A stretch of 64,000 nt of DNA from Calditrichota bacterium (GCA_008501735.1 QQUF01000045.1:62001-126000), one strand, 5' to 3'. Positions 22,485 to 32,312 are shown, counted from the first letter of the stretch. Numbers and translations are program-made. Notes: a model not told the origin generated them from the letters alone.

Positions 22485-24395
22485 ATGATACAAGTTACAA
22501 ACCTAAGCCTCAACTACGGCTCAAAAGATATTTTCATAAATGCTTCACTTGGTATTAGAAACGGAGAAAGAATTGGTTTAATCGGTCCAAATGGGATTGG
22601 GAAAACAACATTTTTTAGAATCTTGAACGGCACAGTTGAAGCTCAAGGAAAAGTCGTAATTCCAAAAGATTACAGAATCGGTTACTTAGAACAAGAAGCT
22701 ATTGAAGTTCACGGAACTACTCTACTCGAAGAATCTTTAAACGCTTTTCCTGAACTTTTAGAAGCCCAAGCAAAAATCAAAAAATTGGAAAAAGAAATTG
22801 AAAACGACCCAATGAACGAAGAGTTAATCGAAGAATTTGGAGATTTACATCATTTTTTCGATGAACACGGTGGTTGGCAAATGGAAGCAAACGCTGGAAA
22901 AGTCCTAACAGGTTTAGGATTCAAAGCAAGTGAATTTGACCTTCCTGTCGAAAGTTTTTCAGGTGGTTGGCAAATGAGAATTGCTTTGGCAAAATTGCTA
23001 ATTCAAAGCCCGAATCTTCTGCTACTTGACGAACCTACAAACCACTTGGATTTGGACAGTATTTTTTGGTTTGAAAATTACCTTAAAAGCTATGAAGGAA
23101 GTGTAATTCTCATTTCTCACGACATTCGCTTTTTGAACAACGTAATTAATAAAACTGTGGAAATTACAAATCAGAGTTTTGTAGAATACACTGGAAATTA
23201 TGACGATTACGTAAGAATTAAATGGGAAAGAATTGAGCGTCAAGAACAACTTCAAACCACGCAACAAAAGAAAATTGACCGTCTTCAAAGTTTTGTTGAA
23301 AGGTTTCGTTACAAACAAAGCAAGGCAAAACAAGTTCAGAGTAAAATCAAATTTATCGAAAAAATGGACGTTGTCAAAGTTGACGATGCTTCTATCCAAA
23401 CTGCAAATTTCCGTTTCCCAACTCCTCACAGAAGTAGCCTTGAAATTGCAAATCTTGAAAAAGTTAAAAAAGTTTACGGCGATAAATTAATTTTTGAAAA
23501 TGTCAATTTTGATATTCGACGTGGCGATAAAATTGCTTTTGTCGGACCAAACGGAACAGGAAAGTCCACACTAAGTAGAATAATTTCCCAAAAAGAAGCA
23601 CCAACCGATGGAATTGCAAAATTTGGAACTTTGGTTCAAATGGACTTTTATTCTCAGCATTCAGCAGACGAGTTGACACACACGAACACGATTTTAGAAG
23701 AAATGGAAAACGAAACTACTTTGGAACACTATCCTCAACTTCGCAAGATTTTGGGAAATTTCCTATTTAGTGGCGATGACATTCAGAAGAAAATTGGAGT
23801 TCTTAGTGGTGGTGAAAAAAGTAGAGTTTGTTTGGCAAAAATGATGCTTCACACTTCAAATTTTCTGATTTTTGATGAGCCAACAAATCACTTGGACATT
23901 TACACAAAAGAAGTTTTGAAACAAGCCTTGAATGCTTTTGAAGGTGCTTTGTTGGTAATTTCTCACGACAGGGAATTTTTGAGCGGACTTGTCAACCGAG
24001 TAATTGAAATCGAAAACAAAACTTTAAAAGCTCACCTTTTGGATTTTGAAAGCTACTTAGAGAAAAAAGAAAAGGAAGTTTTGTCTTCTGGAACTGAAGG
24101 AGAAGGCAAAAAGACAAATGAAACCAAAGCCGAAAGAATCGCAAAACGTGAAGCAGAGAAAGACATCAAAAGAAAAAAAAGTAACCTTCAAAAGAAGATT
24201 AAAAAAATCGAAAAAGAAATTGAAACTAAAGAAGCTGAAATTGTAAAAATTGAATCAGAACTTGCAAAAAAAGAAGTTTACTTAAACAGAATCAAAGTCA
24301 AAGACTTAACCAAAACAATCGAAACTACAAAAAAAGAAATCGAAGAACTTTGGGTTACTTTAGATGCTTTGTTAGTTGATATGGAGGATTTTTAA
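22485..24395 (+). CDS. ABC-F family ATPase (translation factor type)
   Basis: The 636-residue protein has two ATP-binding cassettes and no membrane domain. Cassette 1 has Walker A GPNGIGKTT near 34, signature FSGGWQMRIALAK and LLLLDEPTNHLDL. Cassette 2 has GPNGTGKST, LSGGEKSRVCLAK and FDEPTNHLDI. A P-site-tractor-like linker (about 235-290) is rich in Arg/Lys/Gln, and a Lys/Glu coiled coil forms the tail (about 545-636), as in Uup/YheS-type members. ABC-F proteins act on the ribosome exit site or relieve stalling. Antibiotic resistance cannot be inferred. The gene is monocistronic. Confidence 0.93.
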   Translation: MIQVTNLSLNYGSKDIFINASLGIRNGERIGLIGPNGIGKTTFFRILNGTVEAQGKVVIPKDYRIGYLEQEAIEVHGTTLLEESLNAFPELLEAQAKIKKLEKEIENDPMNEELIEEFGDLHHFFDEHGGWQMEANAGKVLTGLGFKASEFDLPVESFSGGWQMRIALAKLLIQSPNLLLLDEPTNHLDLDSIFWFENYLKSYEGSVILISHDIRFLNNVINKTVEITNQSFVEYTGNYDDYVRIKWERIERQEQLQTTQQKKIDRLQSFVERFRYKQSKAKQVQSKIKFIEKMDVVKVDDASIQTANFRFPTPHRSSLEIANLEKVKKVYGDKLIFENVNFDIRRGDKIAFVGPNGTGKSTLSRIISQKEAPTDGIAKFGTLVQMDFYSQHSADELTHTNTILEEMENETTLEHYPQLRKILGNFLFSGDDIQKKIGVLSGGEKSRVCLAKMMLHTSNFLIFDEPTNHLDIYTKEVLKQALNAFEGALLVISHDREFLSGLVNRVIEIENKTLKAHLLDFESYLEKKEKEVLSSGTEGEGKKTNETKAERIAKREAEKDIKRKKSNLQKKIKKIEKEIETKEAEIVKIESELAKKEVYLNRIKVKDLTKTIETTKKEIEELWVTLDALLVDMEDF

Positions 24396-24404
24396 GGCGT
24401 TTTT

Positions 24405-24556
24405 GGTTTCCACAAGAGAAACTCTTACAAAGTGAGTTGTACATCTTGGTATCTTGTGATGTCTAGGGTTTCCACAAGAGAAACTCTTACAAAGTGAGTT
24501 GTACATCTTGGTATCTTGTGATGTCTAGGGTTTCCACAAGAGAAACCCTTACAAAG
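24405..24556. repeat. 62-bp tandem repeat, about 2.4 copies
   Basis: Two almost identical 62-bp units begin at 24405 and 24467, and a third partial, diverged copy begins at 24529. Each unit starts with the small hairpin GGTTTC-cacaaga-GAAAC and contains ACATC...GATGT. The CACAAG core matches the loop of the GGGCAACC palindromes nearby, so this may be a degenerate array of the same element family. No spacers, so not a CRISPR. Confidence 0.85.
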
Positions 24557-24600
24557 CACCTTTACATCTTTTCTCTTATGCTATATCACATACTGTGTAA

Positions 24601-24621
24601 GGGCAACCCTTGTGGTTGCCC
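24601..24621. repeat. REP palindrome, copy 1
   Basis: Perfect 8-bp arms GGGCAACC and GGTTGCCC enclose the 5-base loop CTTGT. It lies about 40 bp downstream of hsdR, so it could also act as an RNA 3' stabiliser. Two copies of the short string ACTTTGCCCTTTTG follow it. Confidence 0.85.
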
Positions 24622-24661: not shown

Positions 24662-27091
24662 TTATGCAACTTTCCTATCGTACAAATGTCTTTGAAATTC
24701 TAAGAATAATGACCTAATGTTTGAGATTTCACCAAGTTTTTCTTTAGCATCTTCGATGGAATTGTATTTATTTTTAAGTAAAATCGGCAATTTATCTTGG
24801 TCTAACTCCTCAACACCAATTTCAACATACTTACTCAAGACAAAATCTATAAATTCTTTTTGTTTGTCATCAAGCAAAGCAAAAATCATAGCTTTTGCCC
24901 TTATAACTCTCTCTTCTCTTGTTATTGGTTTTATTTCACTGTTAAAAACATATTCCAAGACATCGAATAAATCACTTTTTTCCGCTTCGATTAAACTCTT
25001 AAGAGTTTCTAATTCAGTTATTCCAAATCCTGCTTCTTCCAATTTTTCAAGTAAGGTTTTCCTTGTTATCGGATTACTCCACAAAGTTCGTAATTCTTCT
25101 TCGTCTTTGAACAAATTCGGAAGTTCCCCAAATAAGTTATTCAAAAAGTCTTCGGCTGAAATCGGTCTTCCGTCTGCACTCCAAAATGAAGTTGAAGTAA
25201 TGTGCTGAATTTGTCTTTCTTTACCGTCTCGAAGTTTTATTTTTACCTTCCTAATACAAATGCAAGGAGTTAGTCCACATTTTTTACAAGGTTTTTTCGG
25301 GCAAATACAAGGTCGCTTCTCACAAACTTCACAAAGTTTTGGTTCAGCTTTTTCACAAATGCAAATTGTTTCACCACAATCTTCACAAGGTTCAGATTCA
25401 ATTGGTTCTCCGTCCCATTCTGGGTCAACAAAGTGATGATAAGCTCCGACAAAGTCGTAAATCGTGAAGTAGTCTTTTCCTTCAAATAATCTTGTTCCTC
25501 TTCCAATAATTTGTTTAAACTCGATCATTGTTTTGATTGGTCGGAGTAAAACAATATTCCGAATGTTTCTTGCATCAACTCCTGTGGAAAGTTTTTGTGA
25601 AGTCGTTAAAATTGTTGGAAGCGTTTTTTCGTTGTCCTGAAATTCACGTAAAAATTGTTCTCCAATTTCTTTGTCATTCGCTGTTACTCTAACACAGTAG
25701 TTAGCGGCTTTGCTTGATTTTAATTGATTTACAAAATCTCGTATTAATGCAGCGTGAGCTTGGTTTGCACAAAAAATAATCGCTTTTTCTTTTTGATTAA
25801 CCTGATTCAAAAGTATTTCAACTCGATTTTTCTCACGTTCTTTAATTTCAATTTTACGATTAAAATCTGCTTCCTCGTAAATTTTACCTTCTTCTACTTC
25901 ACCTTCAAGAACGTCGTCATCGTTTGTGTAAACGTATTCGTCAAGAGTCGTTTTAATTCTTTTGACTTTAAAAGGTGTTAGAAATCCATCGTTGATTCCT
26001 TCTTTAAGCGAGTAAGTATAAACTGCATCTCCAAAATATTTGTAAGTGTCAACATTTTCGCTTCTTTTTGGAGTCGCAGTTAAACCAAGTTGAACAGCAG
26101 GTGAAAAATAATCTAAAATTTGTCGCCAATTTCCTTCGTCATTCGCTCCACCTCTGTGGCATTCGTCAATAATTATGAAATCAAAAAAATCCTTTGGGTA
26201 ATCTCCAAAATAATATTTCGGGTTTCCGCTTTCGTCTTTGCCACTCATAAAAGTTTGGAAAATTGTAAAAAAGATGCTTCCGTTTGTCGGAACTTTCCCT
26301 CTTTTTTTTATTTCGTTTGGTCTGATTCGAATCATTGCATCTTCGGGGAAAGATGAAAATGAATTAAATGCTTGGTCTGCCAAAACATTTCTGTCCGCCA
26401 AGAATAAAATTCTTGGTTGTCTTTTTCCGTCTCGGTTCAAGTTCCAACGAGTTTGAAAAAGTTTCCAAGAAATCTGAAAAGCGATAGCTGTTTTACCTGT
26501 TCCTGTTGCAAGTGTAAGTAAAATTCTTTCTTGCCCTTTGGCAACTGCTTCAAGAGTTTTCCGAACTGCAATTTCTTGGTAAAACCTAAGTTTCCAAGTT
26601 CCGCTTTTATCTTCGAAAGGGACGTTTAAAAAAGTTTCAAGCCAATTTAAGTCTAAAGAACTTTTTGATTTCTCAAGTTCAGATTTTTTAGGAGTCGGAT
26701 AAGTTTTCTCCCAAAGTTCTTGAGGTGAGAAGAAATCTGAAACCAAACCTTCTTCGCCTGTTTCCATACAAATCTGGTAAATTTCTTTTCCATTTGTGGA
26801 ATATGTGTAACCTACATTTAATTTCTCTGCGTACTGTTTTGCTTGTGCAACTCCTTCGCCGACTTCCAAATTTTCACTTTTGGCTTCTACGACTGCAAGT
26901 TTGATTCCTTTGTAAACCAAAATGTAATCGGCAATCAATGGCTTTTTCCTTTTTCCACCAACTTGGATTCTCCCGTCTGTAATTTTACAAACATCTCTTT
27001 CACGAAGAATTTTGGAACCTTCGACAATTCCCCAACCACAAGATTTTAATTTTGGGTCGATTAATTCAGCTCTTGTTTCGGCTTCATTCAT
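24662..27091 (-). CDS. hsdR: Type I restriction enzyme subunit R (EcoEI/EcoAI type)
   Basis: In this 809-residue protein, the N-terminal nuclease domain has Asp55 ... Glu69-Ala-Lys71 (D...ExK). The translocase has Walker A TGTGKT near 196, motif II DECHRG, motif III LTATPKR and motif VI QIIGRGTR. A cysteine-rich insert with three C-x2-C...C-x-C units (about 593-640) precedes the EcoEI_R_C domain (HITSTSFWSADGRPIS onward). The subunit translocates DNA and cuts it when target sites are unmethylated. It is the last gene of hsdM-hsdS-RAYT-hsdR, and its ATG overlaps the stop of the RAYT gene by 8 bases. Confidence 0.95.
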   Translation of the reverse strand: MNEAETRAELIDPKLKSCGWGIVEGSKILRERDVCKITDGRIQVGGKRKKPLIADYILVYKGIKLAVVEAKSENLEVGEGVAQAKQYAEKLNVGYTYSTNGKEIYQICMETGEEGLVSDFFSPQELWEKTYPTPKKSELEKSKSSLDLNWLETFLNVPFEDKSGTWKLRFYQEIAVRKTLEAVAKGQERILLTLATGTGKTAIAFQISWKLFQTRWNLNRDGKRQPRILFLADRNVLADQAFNSFSSFPEDAMIRIRPNEIKKRGKVPTNGSIFFTIFQTFMSGKDESGNPKYYFGDYPKDFFDFIIIDECHRGGANDEGNWRQILDYFSPAVQLGLTATPKRSENVDTYKYFGDAVYTYSLKEGINDGFLTPFKVKRIKTTLDEYVYTNDDDVLEGEVEEGKIYEEADFNRKIEIKEREKNRVEILLNQVNQKEKAIIFCANQAHAALIRDFVNQLKSSKAANYCVRVTANDKEIGEQFLREFQDNEKTLPTILTTSQKLSTGVDARNIRNIVLLRPIKTMIEFKQIIGRGTRLFEGKDYFTIYDFVGAYHHFVDPEWDGEPIESEPCEDCGETICICEKAEPKLCEVCEKRPCICPKKPCKKCGLTPCICIRKVKIKLRDGKERQIQHITSTSFWSADGRPISAEDFLNNLFGELPNLFKDEEELRTLWSNPITRKTLLEKLEEAGFGITELETLKSLIEAEKSDLFDVLEYVFNSEIKPITREERVIRAKAMIFALLDDKQKEFIDFVLSKYVEIGVEELDQDKLPILLKNKYNSIEDAKEKLGEISNIRSLFLEFQRHLYDRKVA

Positions 27092-28043
27092 AATTATAAA
27101 ATCTATCCTCTTTCCAATTTTGTGGATTTCTTAAAATATATTCTGAAATTACTTCGAATGAATTTTGATTTCGGATAATATTTTCCCAATAATTTCGTTG
27201 CCATACTCTTCGGTCAAAAGGTTTCCAATTTTTATTTTCAACACCTTTAATGTATTCAACGGTTGTAATCGATTTAAATGCACCAATCATTTCACCAACC
27301 GTTTTGTTTTTTGGGGAAACCATTTTTTGGGAAATCGTTTTGACGTTGTTTTGGGCAACCACAAGGGTTGCCTTTACGTTGTTGTTTGATTCGGGTTTAT
27401 CGTTTGGGTCAACGTTTACGTTTGATTCGTTTTCCGTTTCATTTTCCGTTTCCGTTACGTTTTCCGTAGGGGCAAACCCTTGTGGTTGCCCTTTTCCCAT
27501 TGCGTTTTCATCATTTTTTGCATTTGCGTTGTTTTCAGAAATCGTTTCGATATTGTTTTGGGCAATCGTTTCGATATTGTTTTGGGCAATCGTTTCGATA
27601 TTGTTTTGGGCAACCACAAGGGTTGCCCTTACGTTGATGTTTGATTCGGGTTTATCGTTTGGGACAACGTTTACGTTTGATTCATTTTCCGTTTCCGTTA
27701 CGTTTCCCGTTTCCGTTTCGTTTTCCGTATGGGCAAACCCTTGTGGTTGCCCTTTTCCTGTTTCGTTTTCGTTTTTGATTTCTAAGATTGCGTGAAAATG
27801 GTTTGGCATAATTATAAATTCGTGCAAAATTGTATTTTTAAAACGTTCGGTAATTTTTAACCATTCAGATTCAATCATTAATCCTGCGTCATTTAAAATC
27901 ATTTTTCCATCTTCTATTTTTCCAAATAAATGCAATCTGTTTTGGCAACAAATTGTTATAAAATAAAATCCATTTTGTGAATAATCATAGCCTTTTAATC
28001 GAATTGACCTGCGATGATGAATATTTGGATTGTATTTTGACAT
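27084..28043 (-). CDS. REP-associated tyrosine transposase (RAYT) with a translated REP-rich insert
   Basis: This 319-residue protein is of the Y1/IS200-like RAYT class. Residues 1-90 hold the first half of the catalytic fold, with IIMPNHFHAI and the metal-binding His82-x-His84. Residues 242-319 hold the second half, with FDRRVWQRNYWENIIR (catalytic Tyr probably Tyr285) and EYILRNPQNW. RAYTs usually have about 150-220 residues. The extra length, about 92-240, is an Asn/Glu/Thr-rich repeat insert. In it GKGQPQGFA (96-104, 183-191) and ATLVVAQNN (140-148, 225-233) are translated REP palindromes, and NNIETIAQ repeats three times. RAYTs cut and join single-stranded REP DNA. The start lies 5 bp after hsdS and the stop overlaps hsdR. 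Confidence 0.92.
   Translation of the reverse strand: MSKYNPNIHHRRSIRLKGYDYSQNGFYFITICCQNRLHLFGKIEDGKMILNDAGLMIESEWLKITERFKNTILHEFIIMPNHFHAILEIKNENETGKGQPQGFAHTENETETGNVTETENESNVNVVPNDKPESNINVRATLVVAQNNIETIAQNNIETIAQNNIETISENNANAKNDENAMGKGQPQGFAPTENVTETENETENESNVNVDPNDKPESNNNVKATLVVAQNNVKTISQKMVSPKNKTVGEMIGAFKSITTVEYIKGVENKNWKPFDRRVWQRNYWENIIRNQNSFEVISEYILRNPQNWKEDRFYNYE
27353..27372. repeat. REP palindrome inside the RAYT gene, copy 2
   Basis: Palindrome GGGCAACC-acaag-GGTTGCC within the RAYT reading frame, translated on the minus strand as ATLVVAQ (residues about 225-231). It has the opposite orientation to copies 3 and 5. Confidence 0.85.
27470..27491. repeat. REP palindrome inside the RAYT gene, copy 3
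   Basis: Arms GGGCAAACC and GGTTGCCC around CTTGT, read on the minus strand as GQPQGFA (about 185-191). It has the one-base bulge (extra A) seen in many copies here. Confidence 0.85.
27541..27612. repeat. 24-bp tandem repeat, three copies, coding
   Basis: Three exact 24-bp units start at 27541, 27565 and 27589. On the minus strand they encode NNIETIAQ three times. The last unit runs into REP copy 4, so the unit probably arose by slippage from a REP flank. Confidence 0.9.
27608..27628. repeat. REP palindrome inside the RAYT gene, copy 4
   Basis: Perfect GGGCAACC / GGTTGCCC arms with ACAAG loop, read as ATLVVAQ (about 140-146) in the transposase. Paired with copy 5 it forms the second of two tandem coding units. 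Confidence 0.85.
27731..27752. repeat. REP palindrome inside the RAYT gene, copy 5
   Basis: GGGCAAACC / GGTTGCCC arms around CTTGT, read on the minus strand as GQPQGFA (about 98-104), at the N-terminal edge of the insert. Confidence 0.85.
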
Positions 28044-28048
28044 AAAAA

Positions 28049-29212
28049 TTATAACTCACCGTTAAAGGCTTTTTGTAAAATCGATTTTTTCAACTCTTCA
28101 AAATCTTCTATTTTTTTCTGATAAATTGATTCTAATTTTTTCGTCTCGGCTGAAAGAGATTCTAATTTTTCAACAATTTTTTGTTGCCTTTGGATTGAAG
28201 GACAATAAAATGAATATTTGAATAGATGATTTCGATTTACTTTTGGCATTCCTGCTCTTTGCGAACCTTCAATTGCATATTCAGTAAATTTTATTGTAAA
28301 AAACAAATAATATAAAAAACTTTGTGTAATTTCTTTATTTATTGGAGATAAAGGATAAATATCTGCACTACAAAGTCCCTCAAAGTCACATTTCACAATT
28401 TTCATTAAGTTTGGACGTATTTTACTATAAAGTACCATTCTTTCATCAAATAAAAACTTCCCTGAAATAATATTCTCTTCTTTTGCTGTTTTTAATTTTT
28501 TTATGGTTCCTTTTTTTGACTCAATATTACCAGCACCAATATGGAGGAAGTTTTGATATTGAGGTTTTTTAGGGTCTATTAACTTAGAAATTATTCTGCA
28601 AACTTCTCCCAACTTCTTCTCTTCCCAATCTCCACTTTTGTTTTCAAAAATTCCGTTTAGGTAGCTCTCGAAAAGCTCTTTGGCATTTTTCAGGTTTTGT
28701 TCGGCATTTGCTTTGGCTTTGTCAATTGCGGAAAAGACTTTGTCTAAAATCTCAACGATTCGCTTCTGCTCCGAAAGTGGCGGAATTAAAATAGGAAAAT
28801 TAAATATGTCATTTTTGCTAAATCCATTTTGAGCTGAACGAGATGCAACATTTTTTAAACGCTTTTGAAAATCAACAGAATTAAAATAAAAGTATAAATA
28901 TCTTTTATTCAATATTTCCTCATTTGGAATTGATTTCATGACTGCAACATTATATGCTCCTTTTTTTTCCACTAAAACTTTCCCCACTGAAGCTCCATAA
29001 CGACCCAATAAAATGTCACTTTCATTACAATATCTATTTTTTGTCGATTCTGGAATAAAAGTTAAGTGTTTATTACTTTTAAAATCTCTAATTTGTAAAA
29101 ACCTTACATAGTTTTCTCTTGGTTCATAAATGAACTCGCTTTTAGGAGGTTGTGAACCTCCTTGAAATTGGCAAACTTCACCTAATTTTTTTATCTCCCA
29201 ACCTTTTTTCAT
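28049..29212 (-). CDS. hsdS: Type I restriction enzyme specificity subunit
   Basis: The product has 387 residues from the ATG at 29212, whose ATGA overlaps the hsdM stop; the TTG at 29222-29224 is less likely. It contains two target-recognition domains, each followed by a conserved helix: PPLSEQKRIVEILDKVFSAID near 145-165 and CPSIQRQQKIVEKLESL near 340-356. The first domain opens with GWEIKKLGEVCQFQGG and the second with DWEEKKLGEVCRIISK. HsdS sets the bipartite DNA target of the methylase and restriction complexes. The recognised sequence cannot be predicted. The RAYT start follows 5 bp after its stop. Confidence 0.95.
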   Translation of the reverse strand: MKKGWEIKKLGEVCQFQGGSQPPKSEFIYEPRENYVRFLQIRDFKSNKHLTFIPESTKNRYCNESDILLGRYGASVGKVLVEKKGAYNVAVMKSIPNEEILNKRYLYFYFNSVDFQKRLKNVASRSAQNGFSKNDIFNFPILIPPLSEQKRIVEILDKVFSAIDKAKANAEQNLKNAKELFESYLNGIFENKSGDWEEKKLGEVCRIISKLIDPKKPQYQNFLHIGAGNIESKKGTIKKLKTAKEENIISGKFLFDERMVLYSKIRPNLMKIVKCDFEGLCSADIYPLSPINKEITQSFLYYLFFTIKFTEYAIEGSQRAGMPKVNRNHLFKYSFYCPSIQRQQKIVEKLESLSAETKKLESIYQKKIEDFEELKKSILQKAFNGEL

Positions 29213-30660
29213 ACCATTTCCCAAATCGAATTTAAAATTGTTTCGCTTTCTTTGTCTAATTCTGCCATTTCTTTAAGGATTTCTTTTGGTTCTCTTAAAG
29301 GTGCTTCTTCGGGAGTGTTAGGATTTTTAACCGAAAGGTCAAAAGTGCTTTGGTCAATGTCTTTGATTTTTACACTCCAAGAGTTTTCACTTTCGGCATT
29401 TGTTTTTTGCAGTTTAACAAATTCCGCCAAATCATTTTCATTCAAAGGATTTGTTTTCCCCAAGTTCCTTTCCAAGTTCAGTTGGTAAAACCAAACTTTC
29501 TTAGTCGGACTACCTTTTTCAAAAAACAAAACAATTGTTTTAACTCCTGCACCAGTGAAAGTTCCACCGGGCAAATCCAAAACAGTGTGTAAATTACAGT
29601 CTTCCAAAAGTTTTTTTCTAATTGAAACGGTTGCGTTGTCGGTGTTACTTAGAAAAGTGTTTTTTATTACAACTCCTGCTTTTCCGCCTGCTTTCAGAAT
29701 TTTTATAAAATGTTGCAAAAACAAAGAAGCGGTTTCGCCTGTTTTGATTGGAAAATTTTGCTGAACTTCTGCACGTTCTTTCCCACCAAAAGGAGGATTT
29801 GCCAAAATAACATCGTAACGGTCTTTCTCTTGAATGTCAGAAATATTTTCAGTTAGTGTGTTTGTGTGAACAATGTTTGGAGCTTCGATTCCGTGTAAAA
29901 TCAAATTCATAATTCCGATAACGTAAGCCAAAGACTTCTTTTCTTTGCCGTAAAAAGTCCTTTTTTGCAAAGTCTCGGAATCGACTGACGAAAGATTTTT
30001 GCTATTTTTGAGAAATTCAAAAGCTTCCACCAAAAATCCAGCAGAACCGACAGCACCGTCATAAATTGTATTTCCTATTTCGGGAGCAACAACTTTTACA
30101 ATTGTTTTAATGAGAGGTCTTGGAGTGTAATATTCTCCTCCATTTCGTCCTGCATTTCCCATATTTTTAATTTTGCTTTCATAAAGATGGCTCATTTCGT
30201 GCTTTTCTTTATGCGTTCTAAAACGAAGTTCGTCAATCAGGTTCACAACTTCACGAAGATTGTAACCGCTTTGCACTCTGTTTTTCAATTCACCAAAAAT
30301 CTCACCGATTTTGTATTCGATTGTGTCAGCATTTTCGGCATTAGTTTTAAACTTTTTCAAGTAAGGAAAAAGCTCGTTATTCACAAAATTAATTAGGTCA
30401 TCACCTGACAAAGCATTGTGGTCAATTTTTCCATTTTCGAGTTTCGGAGCCGCCCATTTTTCCCATTGAAATTCAGAGTCAATGAATTTTGTGTAAGTCT
30501 TTCCTGTTAGCTCCGCTTCATTAATTTTATCTTTTTCCAAATCGTCCAAATACTTTAGAAAAAGAATCCAAGAAGTCTGTTCGATGTAATCTAACTCGCT
30601 TCCACAACCTGCATCTTTGTGCAAAATGTCATCGATATTTTTAAAAGTCTGTTCAAACAT
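29209..30660 (-). CDS. hsdM: Type I restriction-modification DNA methyltransferase subunit
   Basis: This 483-residue N6-adenine methylase has the N-terminal HsdM_N helical domain (about 1-140), then GRNGGEYYTPRPLIK, the SAM site YDGAVGSAGFLVEAF and catalytic motif IV ANPPFGG near 294-300. With HsdS it methylates the host target. The gene starts the operon hsdM-hsdS-RAYT-hsdR, and three tandem palindromic repeats lie just upstream of its ATG. Motif I reads G-A-V-G-S-A-G where D-P-x-C-G-S-G is usual, so the first Asp-Pro-Ala/Thr-Cys pattern is altered. Confidence 0.95.
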   Translation of the reverse strand: MFEQTFKNIDDILHKDAGCGSELDYIEQTSWILFLKYLDDLEKDKINEAELTGKTYTKFIDSEFQWEKWAAPKLENGKIDHNALSGDDLINFVNNELFPYLKKFKTNAENADTIEYKIGEIFGELKNRVQSGYNLREVVNLIDELRFRTHKEKHEMSHLYESKIKNMGNAGRNGGEYYTPRPLIKTIVKVVAPEIGNTIYDGAVGSAGFLVEAFEFLKNSKNLSSVDSETLQKRTFYGKEKKSLAYVIGIMNLILHGIEAPNIVHTNTLTENISDIQEKDRYDVILANPPFGGKERAEVQQNFPIKTGETASLFLQHFIKILKAGGKAGVVIKNTFLSNTDNATVSIRKKLLEDCNLHTVLDLPGGTFTGAGVKTIVLFFEKGSPTKKVWFYQLNLERNLGKTNPLNENDLAEFVKLQKTNAESENSWSVKIKDIDQSTFDLSVKNPNTPEEAPLREPKEILKEMAELDKESETILNSIWEMV

Positions 30661-30671
30661 TAATTTTGTCC

Positions 30672-30766
30672 TTTTTTAAGAGGGAAACCACAAAGGTTTG
30701 CTTTTTTTTAAGAGGGAAACCACAAAGGTTTGCTTTTTTTTAAGAGGGAAACCACAAGGGTTTGCC
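30672..30766. repeat. Three tandem REP-like palindromes, 32-bp period, upstream of hsdM
   Basis: Units with AAGAGGGAAACC start at 30678, 30710 and 30742. Each contains GGGAAACC-acaaR-GGTTTGC, a weaker palindrome of the REP type, joined by T-runs. They lie 12-100 bp before the hsdM ATG, in the position of its promoter or leader. Confidence 0.85.
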
Positions 30767-30808
30767 CTTACTTTTTGCTTACACTTTGTAATTTGCACTT
30801 TTTTATTA

Positions 30809-30828
30809 GGTATCCACAAGGGTTACCC
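30809..30828. repeat. Degenerate REP palindrome
   Basis: GGTATCC-acaag-GGTTACCC keeps the ACAAG loop but has mismatches in the arms. It lies between hsdM and fic. Confidence 0.6.
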
Positions 30829-30896
30829 ATTACAACTACAACTTTACTTGCTTTGTAAGAATATTACATTTTCAGCACACTTTTACTTCTTTGTAT

Positions 30897-30918
30897 GGGC
30901 AAACCCTTGTGGTTGCCC
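30897..30918. repeat. REP palindrome between hsdM and fic
   Basis: GGGCAAACC / GGTTGCCC arms around CTTGT, the same form as coding copies 3 and 5. Apart from the REP copies, 30767-31012 holds no gene I can support. Confidence 0.85.
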
Positions 30919-30953
30919 CGAAAGCATAAAGCTACAAAATTATCCCTTTGTAC

Positions 30954-30974
30954 GGGCAAATCCTTGTGGTTGCC
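30954..30974. repeat. REP palindrome next to fic
   Basis: GGGCAAATCC-ttgt-GGTTGCC, one arm mutated. It lies about 40 bp past the fic stop on the minus strand, where a terminator-like RNA hairpin would be expected. Confidence 0.75.
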
Positions 30975-31012: not shown

Positions 31013-32086
31013 TTAATTCTTCTTCAAAATTTCAATCAATTCAATATTCACGTAAATCGTTTCTCTTCCAATTTTTTGCGATTCTAAAATCCCGATTTCT
31101 TCCAAAGTTTTCAAATACCTTGACGCTGCTTTTCTTTCAACTCCAAGTTTTTGGACTACGAACTCAATTTTGGAATACGGATTTTCAAACAGCAACTCAA
31201 TTAGTTCTTTTCGGTAAACTTTATTCGCTTCTGCTTGTGCAAGCTCAATTGTCTTTTCTAACAAAATTCTAATTGAATTTATCTTTTCAATTGTCCTAAG
31301 AGACGTTATTTCAACCGCTTTTAAAATGTATAAAATCCACTCTTCCCACTCATCTTCTTTGTTGACTTTGCTCAAAAGTTCGTAGTATTTGGCTTTGTTT
31401 TCATTAATGTAAGAGCTTAGATAAAGTATTGGATTGTCTAACATCTCGTTAATGATTAAATATAAAATGTTTAAGATTCTACCTGTTCTACCATTCCCAT
31501 CATAAAATAGGTGAATACTCTCAAATTGAAAATGTAAAATCGCTAAGTTAATCAGTGGAGACAAATCACTTTTCTGCAAATTAAAATGTTCTAAGAAATT
31601 TGAAAGTAAATCCAAGATTTCTTTTTTGTCTTGTGGCGGTGTGTAAACAACTTCTCCAGTTTTATCATTTTTCAACACAGTTCCCGCAACGCTTCTAATT
31701 CCTGCATCATTTTCGACAATTGTATTTTGTAATTTTTCAATATCGCTTAATCTCAAAAATCCTTGTTTTTGGATAATTTCATAACCTAAGAAAATTGCTT
31801 TTCTGTAGTTAATGACTTCTTTGATTTCTGTCGAATGATTGCTGTTTGTCGAAAGAGCCTTATAAAGTTCGTCTTGAGTTGTGATTATATTTTCAATTTC
31901 TGAACTGTCTTTTGCTTCTTGCAAAGCGACTGCATTAACTAGCATTGACTGATTCGGAATTGTTTTCGCAATTCCTTTTAACTCTCCCAAAACTTTTGAC
32001 GTTTTGCTTAATTGGCGTAAAATTTTAATCGTTTCGACTTCTTCACGCTTTGGAGGCAGTTTTTCTAATTTTTTGATGTGGTGCAT
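31013..32086 (-). CDS. Fic-domain protein with N-terminal inhibitory helix and winged helix
   Basis: The 357-residue protein has the Fic catalytic motif HLFYDGNGRTGR from His191, where Leu replaces the usual Pro (HPFx). An inhibitory motif S-x-x-x-E-N (Ser61...Glu65-Asn66, in SSEIEN) lies before the Fic core, making it a class II Fic with built-in autoinhibition. A winged helix-turn-helix (about 285-355) ends the protein. Fic enzymes AMP-ylate protein hydroxyls. The target is unknown, and no small antitoxin gene is adjacent, which fits self-inhibition. It sits beside the restriction operon but is separated from it by REP repeats. Confidence 0.92.
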   Translation of the reverse strand: MHHIKKLEKLPPKREEVETIKILRQLSKTSKVLGELKGIAKTIPNQSMLVNAVALQEAKDSSEIENIITTQDELYKALSTNSNHSTEIKEVINYRKAIFLGYEIIQKQGFLRLSDIEKLQNTIVENDAGIRSVAGTVLKNDKTGEVVYTPPQDKKEILDLLSNFLEHFNLQKSDLSPLINLAILHFQFESIHLFYDGNGRTGRILNILYLIINEMLDNPILYLSSYINENKAKYYELLSKVNKEDEWEEWILYILKAVEITSLRTIEKINSIRILLEKTIELAQAEANKVYRKELIELLFENPYSKIEFVVQKLGVERKAASRYLKTLEEIGILESQKIGRETIYVNIELIEILKKN

Positions 32087-32264: not shown

Positions 32265-32290
32265 CTAAGTAGCTTGGAAAATCTTCGTAC

Positions 32291-32312
32291 TGGCAAACCC
32301 TTGTGGTTGCCA
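32291..32312. repeat. REP palindrome between fic and the GyrI-like gene
   Basis: TGGCAAACC-cttgt-GGTTGCCA: a REP with both outer bases changed in a compensating way, keeping the stem. It is the last copy seen in the window. Confidence 0.75.

Follow-up and report, generated by a model that had tools for sequence, protein, structure and literature searches.

The closest described relatives of the gene considered here are the RAYTs of group 4, or TnpA-Y1 subclass 2.4, in which REPs are present inside the tnpA-REP genes themselves, between the HuH motif and the tyrosine, and leave the reading frame undisrupted (Quentin et al. 2018, PMC6006769). These internal REPs have been viewed as a peripheral extension that probably has little effect on activity (PMC6006769), and REPs inside unrelated genes had been described before that study (PMC3733652). 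A second point of reference is E. coli TnpA-REP (PDB 4er8; subclass 2.2), which has in common with our protein the HUH/Y1 fold and the W-Q-x4-E...R guide region, and whose hairpin-with-foot substrate the two enzymes would presumably share.

The RAYT examined here is encoded in a stretch of 64,000 nucleotides from a Calditrichota bacterium (GCA_008501735.1, QQUF01000045.1:62001-126000), hereafter called the window. It shares with subclass 2.4 the NHFH and WQ motifs, a variable insertion between strand beta3 and helix alphaC, frame-keeping internal REPs and a patchy distribution of its kind over phyla (PMC6006769). It differs in having YILRNP instead of YIxNNP, a loop about three times the median length and four internal REPs. 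Whereas subclass 2.4 genes are flanked by REPs with a GT[AG]G foot, the window has further copies of this gene's own REP nearby but with few canonical GTAG feet, and no REP directly at the ends of the gene, because hsdS and hsdR abut it. The window RAYT is an extreme member of a published kind, and the central observation is already in print (PMC6006769). What is added here is a measured enrichment of the internal REPs, their frame preference, a link between internal and adjacent REPs, and a case for inheritance over fresh insertion. Comparisons were made with 80 related loci from many phyla, 67 of which had a measurable loop, giving 68 with that of the window; these loci were chosen by similarity to the window protein, so the numbers apply to the part of the family around it and not to RAYTs at large.

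The RAYT gene and its protein

The gene, its neighbours and the main parts of the protein are as follows.

29209..30660, minus strand: hsdM, type I methyltransferase (PADLOC MTase_I, 5e-164)
28049..29224, minus strand: hsdS, type I specificity subunit, ending 5 nt before the RAYT start (PADLOC Specificity_I, 7e-85)
27084..28043, minus strand: RAYT (TnpA-REP) gene, an open frame of 319 aa without stops
24662..27091, minus strand: hsdR, type I restriction subunit, its start overlapping the RAYT stop by 8 nt (PADLOC REase_I, 2e-131)
27315..27773, minus strand: variable loop between strand beta3 and helix alphaC, about residues 91-243, from the alignment; low confidence, mostly unstructured in the AlphaFold model
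RAYT residues, from alignment columns: HUH motif H82-x-H84 (H82-F83-H84); guide motif W281-Q282...R291; catalytic Y302

Judged by its sequence, the window protein is a HUH single-strand transposase of the IS200/IS605 superfamily and belongs to RAYT group 4 / TnpA-Y1 subclass 2.4. It scores 23.5 bits with Pfam Y1_Tnp, just above the cut-off of 23, and 4e-16 with NCBIfam REP_Tyr_transpos, under that model's cut-off of 80 bits, the latter match falling in two stretches with the loop between them. The sole PDB match of a profile built from 64 relatives was 4er8, the E. coli enzyme (1.1e-6). In the alignment with relatives H82, H84, Y302 and N306 are invariant and W281 and Q282 are present in 90% or more of the proteins, and the HUH motif (NHFH, residues 81-84) fits the NH[IFV]H form of the group. 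The first-pass annotation had placed the HUH correctly at residues 82-84 but had put the tyrosine near residue 285; that residue is ruled out as catalytic by the alignment, in which the invariant tyrosine is Y302 of YIxxNP.

Two positions depart from the consensus. In the guide motif W281, Q282, E and R are kept, but H101 (E. coli numbering) is replaced by N, the only N among the 68 sequences scored. In the Y motif, YILRNP, Y302, N306 and P307 are kept, with R at the fourth position as opposed to the N of the YIxNNP subclass consensus, a position that is variable in the compared set (N in 37 of 68). In the AlphaFold model, block means of pLDDT are 37-54 across residues 101-240 as against 83-98 in residues 21-90 and 241-319, and modelled in this way the loop seems to lack structure and to lie off the folded core. 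All of the model's best fold matches are IS200/IS605 transposases; none reaches E 0.001, for which dilution of the score by the loop is the probable reason.

REPs and repeats inside the loop

27727..27752, plus strand: in-gene REP, foot GTAT, read GQPQGFAHT on the gene strand
27608..27632, minus strand: in-gene REP, foot GTAA, read VRATLVVAQ
27466..27491, plus strand: in-gene REP, canonical foot GTAG, read GQPQGFAPT
27353..27377, minus strand: in-gene REP, foot GTAA, read VKATLVVAQ
27600..27758, minus strand: duplicated REP-pair unit, copy 1, residues 96-148 (direct repeats D1 and D3, 88% identical)
27345..27497, minus strand: duplicated REP-pair unit, copy 2, residues 183-233
27534..27605, minus strand: three tandem 24-nt units mid-loop, NNIETIAQ, NNIETIAQ and NNIETISE

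Much of the earlier description of this region holds. An insert of about 150 residues does separate the catalytic halves; four in-frame REP palindromes, read twice as GKGQPQGFA and twice as ATLVVAQNN, are present at the sequence level; the NNIETIAQ repeat, said to occur three times, is found as three 24-nt units (NNIETIAQ/NNIETISE); and the whole GKGQPQGFA-to-ATLVVAQNN unit is indeed duplicated. The four palindromes lie in frame between the HUH motif and the catalytic tyrosine, have perfectly complementary 17-nt arms and share the core GGGCAACCACAAGGGTT(T)GCC, with two copies in each orientation. A one-base difference in one arm between the orientations results in the two readings, GQPQGFA and ATLVVAQ. 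Folding of the palindromes as single-stranded DNA beats that of shuffled sequences (z -1.9 to -4.0).

At 507 nt the window loop is the longest of the 68 (median 154.5, next longest 423), owing to duplication of the REP-pair unit and triplication of the 24-nt unit. The two copies of the unit differ by three synonymous and six non-synonymous substitutions, two of the latter falling in REP feet, so the duplication is not fresh.

REP copies outside the gene

A scan of the whole genome (4.14 Mb) for the REP core, allowing up to 3 mismatches, gave 9 matches, whereas a reversed-pattern control gave 0, so the palindromes are not a product of chance; looser patterns added related variants, mostly on the RAYT contig. 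The claim that the RAYT carries in-frame copies of its own REP family stands, and the same REP is also found outside the gene. E. coli, whose TnpA-REP is without the loop insertion, has very many REPs, whereas the window genome has about a dozen copies, almost all of which share a single contig and one of which has a GTAG foot. The copies and arrays in the window are listed here.

24405..24590, minus strand: tandem 62-nt units, two of them identical, with the related REP variant GTAAGRGTTTCTCTTGTGGAAACC, directly after an ABC-type ATPase gene (22485-24395)
24597..24621, plus strand: intergenic REP directly downstream of hsdR
30665..30771, minus strand: degenerate REP array directly upstream of hsdM
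30893..30918, plus strand: intergenic REP, foot GTAT
30950..30974, plus strand: intergenic REP, foot GTAC
32287..32311, plus strand: intergenic REP, foot GTAC

The nearest outside copy is 2.46 kb from the RAYT gene, and it is the restriction operon, not the RAYT gene, that is bordered by REPs (24597-24621 after hsdR and 30665-30974 before hsdM, plus 32287-32311). Nearly all copies of the family in the 4.1-Mb genome fall in a stretch of about 70 kb that includes the RAYT (contig C24, 22-94 kb), a clustering that suggests local spread. The 22-nt REP core also occurs, without mismatch, on two IMG/VR viral contigs (among L121, L122 and L123).

The in-gene REPs of the window resemble the palindromic elements of Rickettsia, and other REPs reported inside genes (PMC3733652), in being palindromes translated in frame. 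The Rickettsia elements, however, sit in many unrelated genes, and the proposal that this REP family might be similarly tolerated in genes did not fare well: within the window no copy lies inside any gene besides the RAYT, and all non-RAYT copies are intergenic.

The feet of the family are mostly GTAA, GTAT or GTAC. Alongside the replacement of H101 by N in the enzyme, most feet have A, T or C as their fourth base in place of the canonical G, a departure that extends beyond the window REPs to copies on contigs C39, C32 and C18. Taken together, the H101N change and the GTAN feet possibly reflect a relaxed or changed guide. A co-evolved guide change is left as an observation, as some relatives vary their feet too (GTTG, GTCG). 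With N at H101, R in the Y motif and feet mostly GTAN, not GTAG, the present activity of the RAYT is uncertain.

A rival reading takes the locus for a pseudogene in decay, or for an artefact of assembly, with slippage unchecked. The longest loop of the 68, the degenerate feet (one GTAG in roughly a dozen copies), the replacement of H101, the R of the Y motif and the small number of REPs genome-wide would all fit such an explanation, but it is difficult to reconcile with a frame of 319 aa without stops, 160 residues of which have a pLDDT of 70 or more, with intact catalytic HUH, WQ and Y residues, with the tight coupling of the gene to hsdS and hsdR, and with the same architecture in independent assemblies. 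We consider decay or artefact unlikely.

Internal REPs across related RAYTs

The first-pass annotation had treated the gene as an oddity, split by its palindromes. Loop REPs are in fact the normal, published state of the subclass (PMC6006769), and a foot (GTRGGG or its complement) was found in 54 of the 68 loops and a hairpin stem in 48, with no recognisable foot in the remaining 14. Across the 68 genes the loop has 8.9 feet and 19.6 stems per kb; the corresponding densities in the halves of the core are 0.3 and 0.9 for feet and 1.4 and 2.8 for stems. Loop feet number 103, where 11 are expected after shuffling. Of 57 forward feet, 48 share a single reading frame (GTA GGG, VGA). The loops are also related to their surroundings: 4.9% of loop 14-mers are found again in the DNA flanking their own gene as against 1.0% for each core half, the sharing is seen in 27 of the 68 loci, and the nearest outside copy is mostly less than 90 nt from the gene. 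Each gene consequently tends to carry its own REP type both inside and beside it.

Comparison with homologues likewise led us to reject the reading of the insert as unique to this gene, for relatives carry REPs in the same loop. The window REP sequence itself is present as one forward/reverse pair in the nearest relatives (L041-L045 and L047), and the 1-nt arm asymmetry of the window REPs is seen in L044 and others. Some relatives have also expanded this region, L041 by a tandem expansion between its two REPs and L064 by three tandem REP pairs inside the gene. In a first sample of RAYTs from other genomes different translated palindromes occupy the same place (VGAGLVPA..., ATTRVAPT, VGATRRVAPT, LPYAPT), and the architecture of a RAYT with loop REPs recurs in independent assemblies.

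These comparisons bear on whether the REP pair was recently inserted into an uninterrupted RAYT gene by its own enzyme, the frame surviving by luck. Mobilisation of REPs is attributed to RAYTs, and intragenic REPs have been reported (PMC3733652), but six near relatives carry the same pair at the corresponding site, REPs of other sequence are there in most of the subclass, and the two unit copies in the window have diverged. A recent insertion is very unlikely.

The same data could be taken as a sign of self-control, in which the RAYT would bind the single-stranded hairpins of its own gene, or its transcript, and so limit its expression, or in which the internal REPs would serve as a master copy for new REPs. 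The persistence of internal REPs in most of the 68 genes across phyla, with a sequence that changes in step with the adjacent REPs, and the holding of the forward foot in one reading frame favour this idea. It is weakened by the 14 loops without a recognisable foot, by the fact that six of the nine substitutions between the unit copies change the protein, two of them in REP feet, and by L041 and L043, which keep the peptide APT but have lost the GTAG foot, so that an inherited protein sequence would fit equally. Conservation of internal REPs across the subclass may fit a function, yet common descent and a tolerant loop would explain it equally well, and we regard self-control as rather unlikely.

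Origin of the window loop

The reading that we prefer, and hold to be highly probable, is of a group 4 RAYT with an inherited REP pair, a loop that has grown by repeat duplication, and local REP substrates. A forward/reverse REP pair was most likely present in the loop of the common ancestor with the nearest relatives and was then inherited, inheritance being preferred to repeated insertion on the basis of position, sequence and frame, with a RAYT tree that is poorly resolved. Slippage or unequal recombination between the inverted and direct repeats seen in the loop would then have doubled the REP-pair unit and tripled the 24-nt unit. The protein is expected to tolerate this growth and to function, the loop appearing unstructured and outside the folded core. 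By analogy with E. coli TnpA-REP, REPs inside and outside the gene may act as single-stranded hairpin substrates, and the local spread of the small number of outside copies is probably the work of the window RAYT.

Association with type I restriction genes

The window RAYT gene sits inside a type I restriction operon, with hsdS on one side and hsdR on the other, and hsd genes are near the RAYT in about 15 of the 80 relatives, all on the RAYT strand except for one distant hit. By Pfam, restriction genes are the commonest RAYT neighbours (Methylase_S in 5 of 61 cases upstream and 4 of 63 downstream). Against an expectation of 0.42 loci, derived from the density of HsdM_N (99 hits in about 180 Mb, 50 of the relatives' genomes), hsdM was seen beside the RAYT at 12 loci, or 8 after collapsing close relatives, and the hsd label needs at least 9 changes on the poorly resolved RAYT tree. 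The loci combining a RAYT with restriction genes (window 24662-30660, L041, L060, L065, L069, L075, L076, L077, L080, L084, L086, L087 and L111) have several gene orders, on the same strand (M-S-RAYT, R-RAYT-S-M and S-RAYT-R). A second, independent RAYT set, drawn from 17 other genomes, contained no RAYT on a contig with an HsdM_N hit; the association is therefore not universal, and it may be a feature of the nearer clades. We regard it as no more than a lead suggested by gene neighbourhood; literature searches combining RAYTs with restriction-modification gave no relevant result.

Among the 80 related loci, 53 of 62 RAYTs directly follow a gene on their own strand; in 28 of these the distance is no more than about 100 nt, and the two genes often overlap. 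A Fic-family gene (31013-32086, PADLOC SoFic) is found beside the window restriction operon; in the L111 operon, too, the RAYT is followed by a Fic gene.

Meaning for the RAYT family

What is special in the window RAYT is its degree, with the longest loop and four REPs, and its setting in a restriction operon. A bolder proposal, in which we place little confidence, is that the internal REPs of subclass 2.4 would be a conserved cis element evolving with the enzyme and the flanking REPs, and that these RAYTs would be repeated partners of type I restriction systems, enzyme and hairpins affecting hsd expression or reshuffling. If upheld in larger samples, the siting of RAYTs in type I restriction operons, which was not found in the literature searched, would be a lead on their function for the host. 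The RAYT genes of subclass 2.4 are natural cases of genes that hold copies of the presumed DNA substrate of their own enzyme, and the window locus is an extreme one, whose small number of REPs should keep experiments easy to interpret. Should the internal REPs prove functional, they would offer a handle on the role of RAYTs for their hosts and on the matching of RAYTs to REPs.
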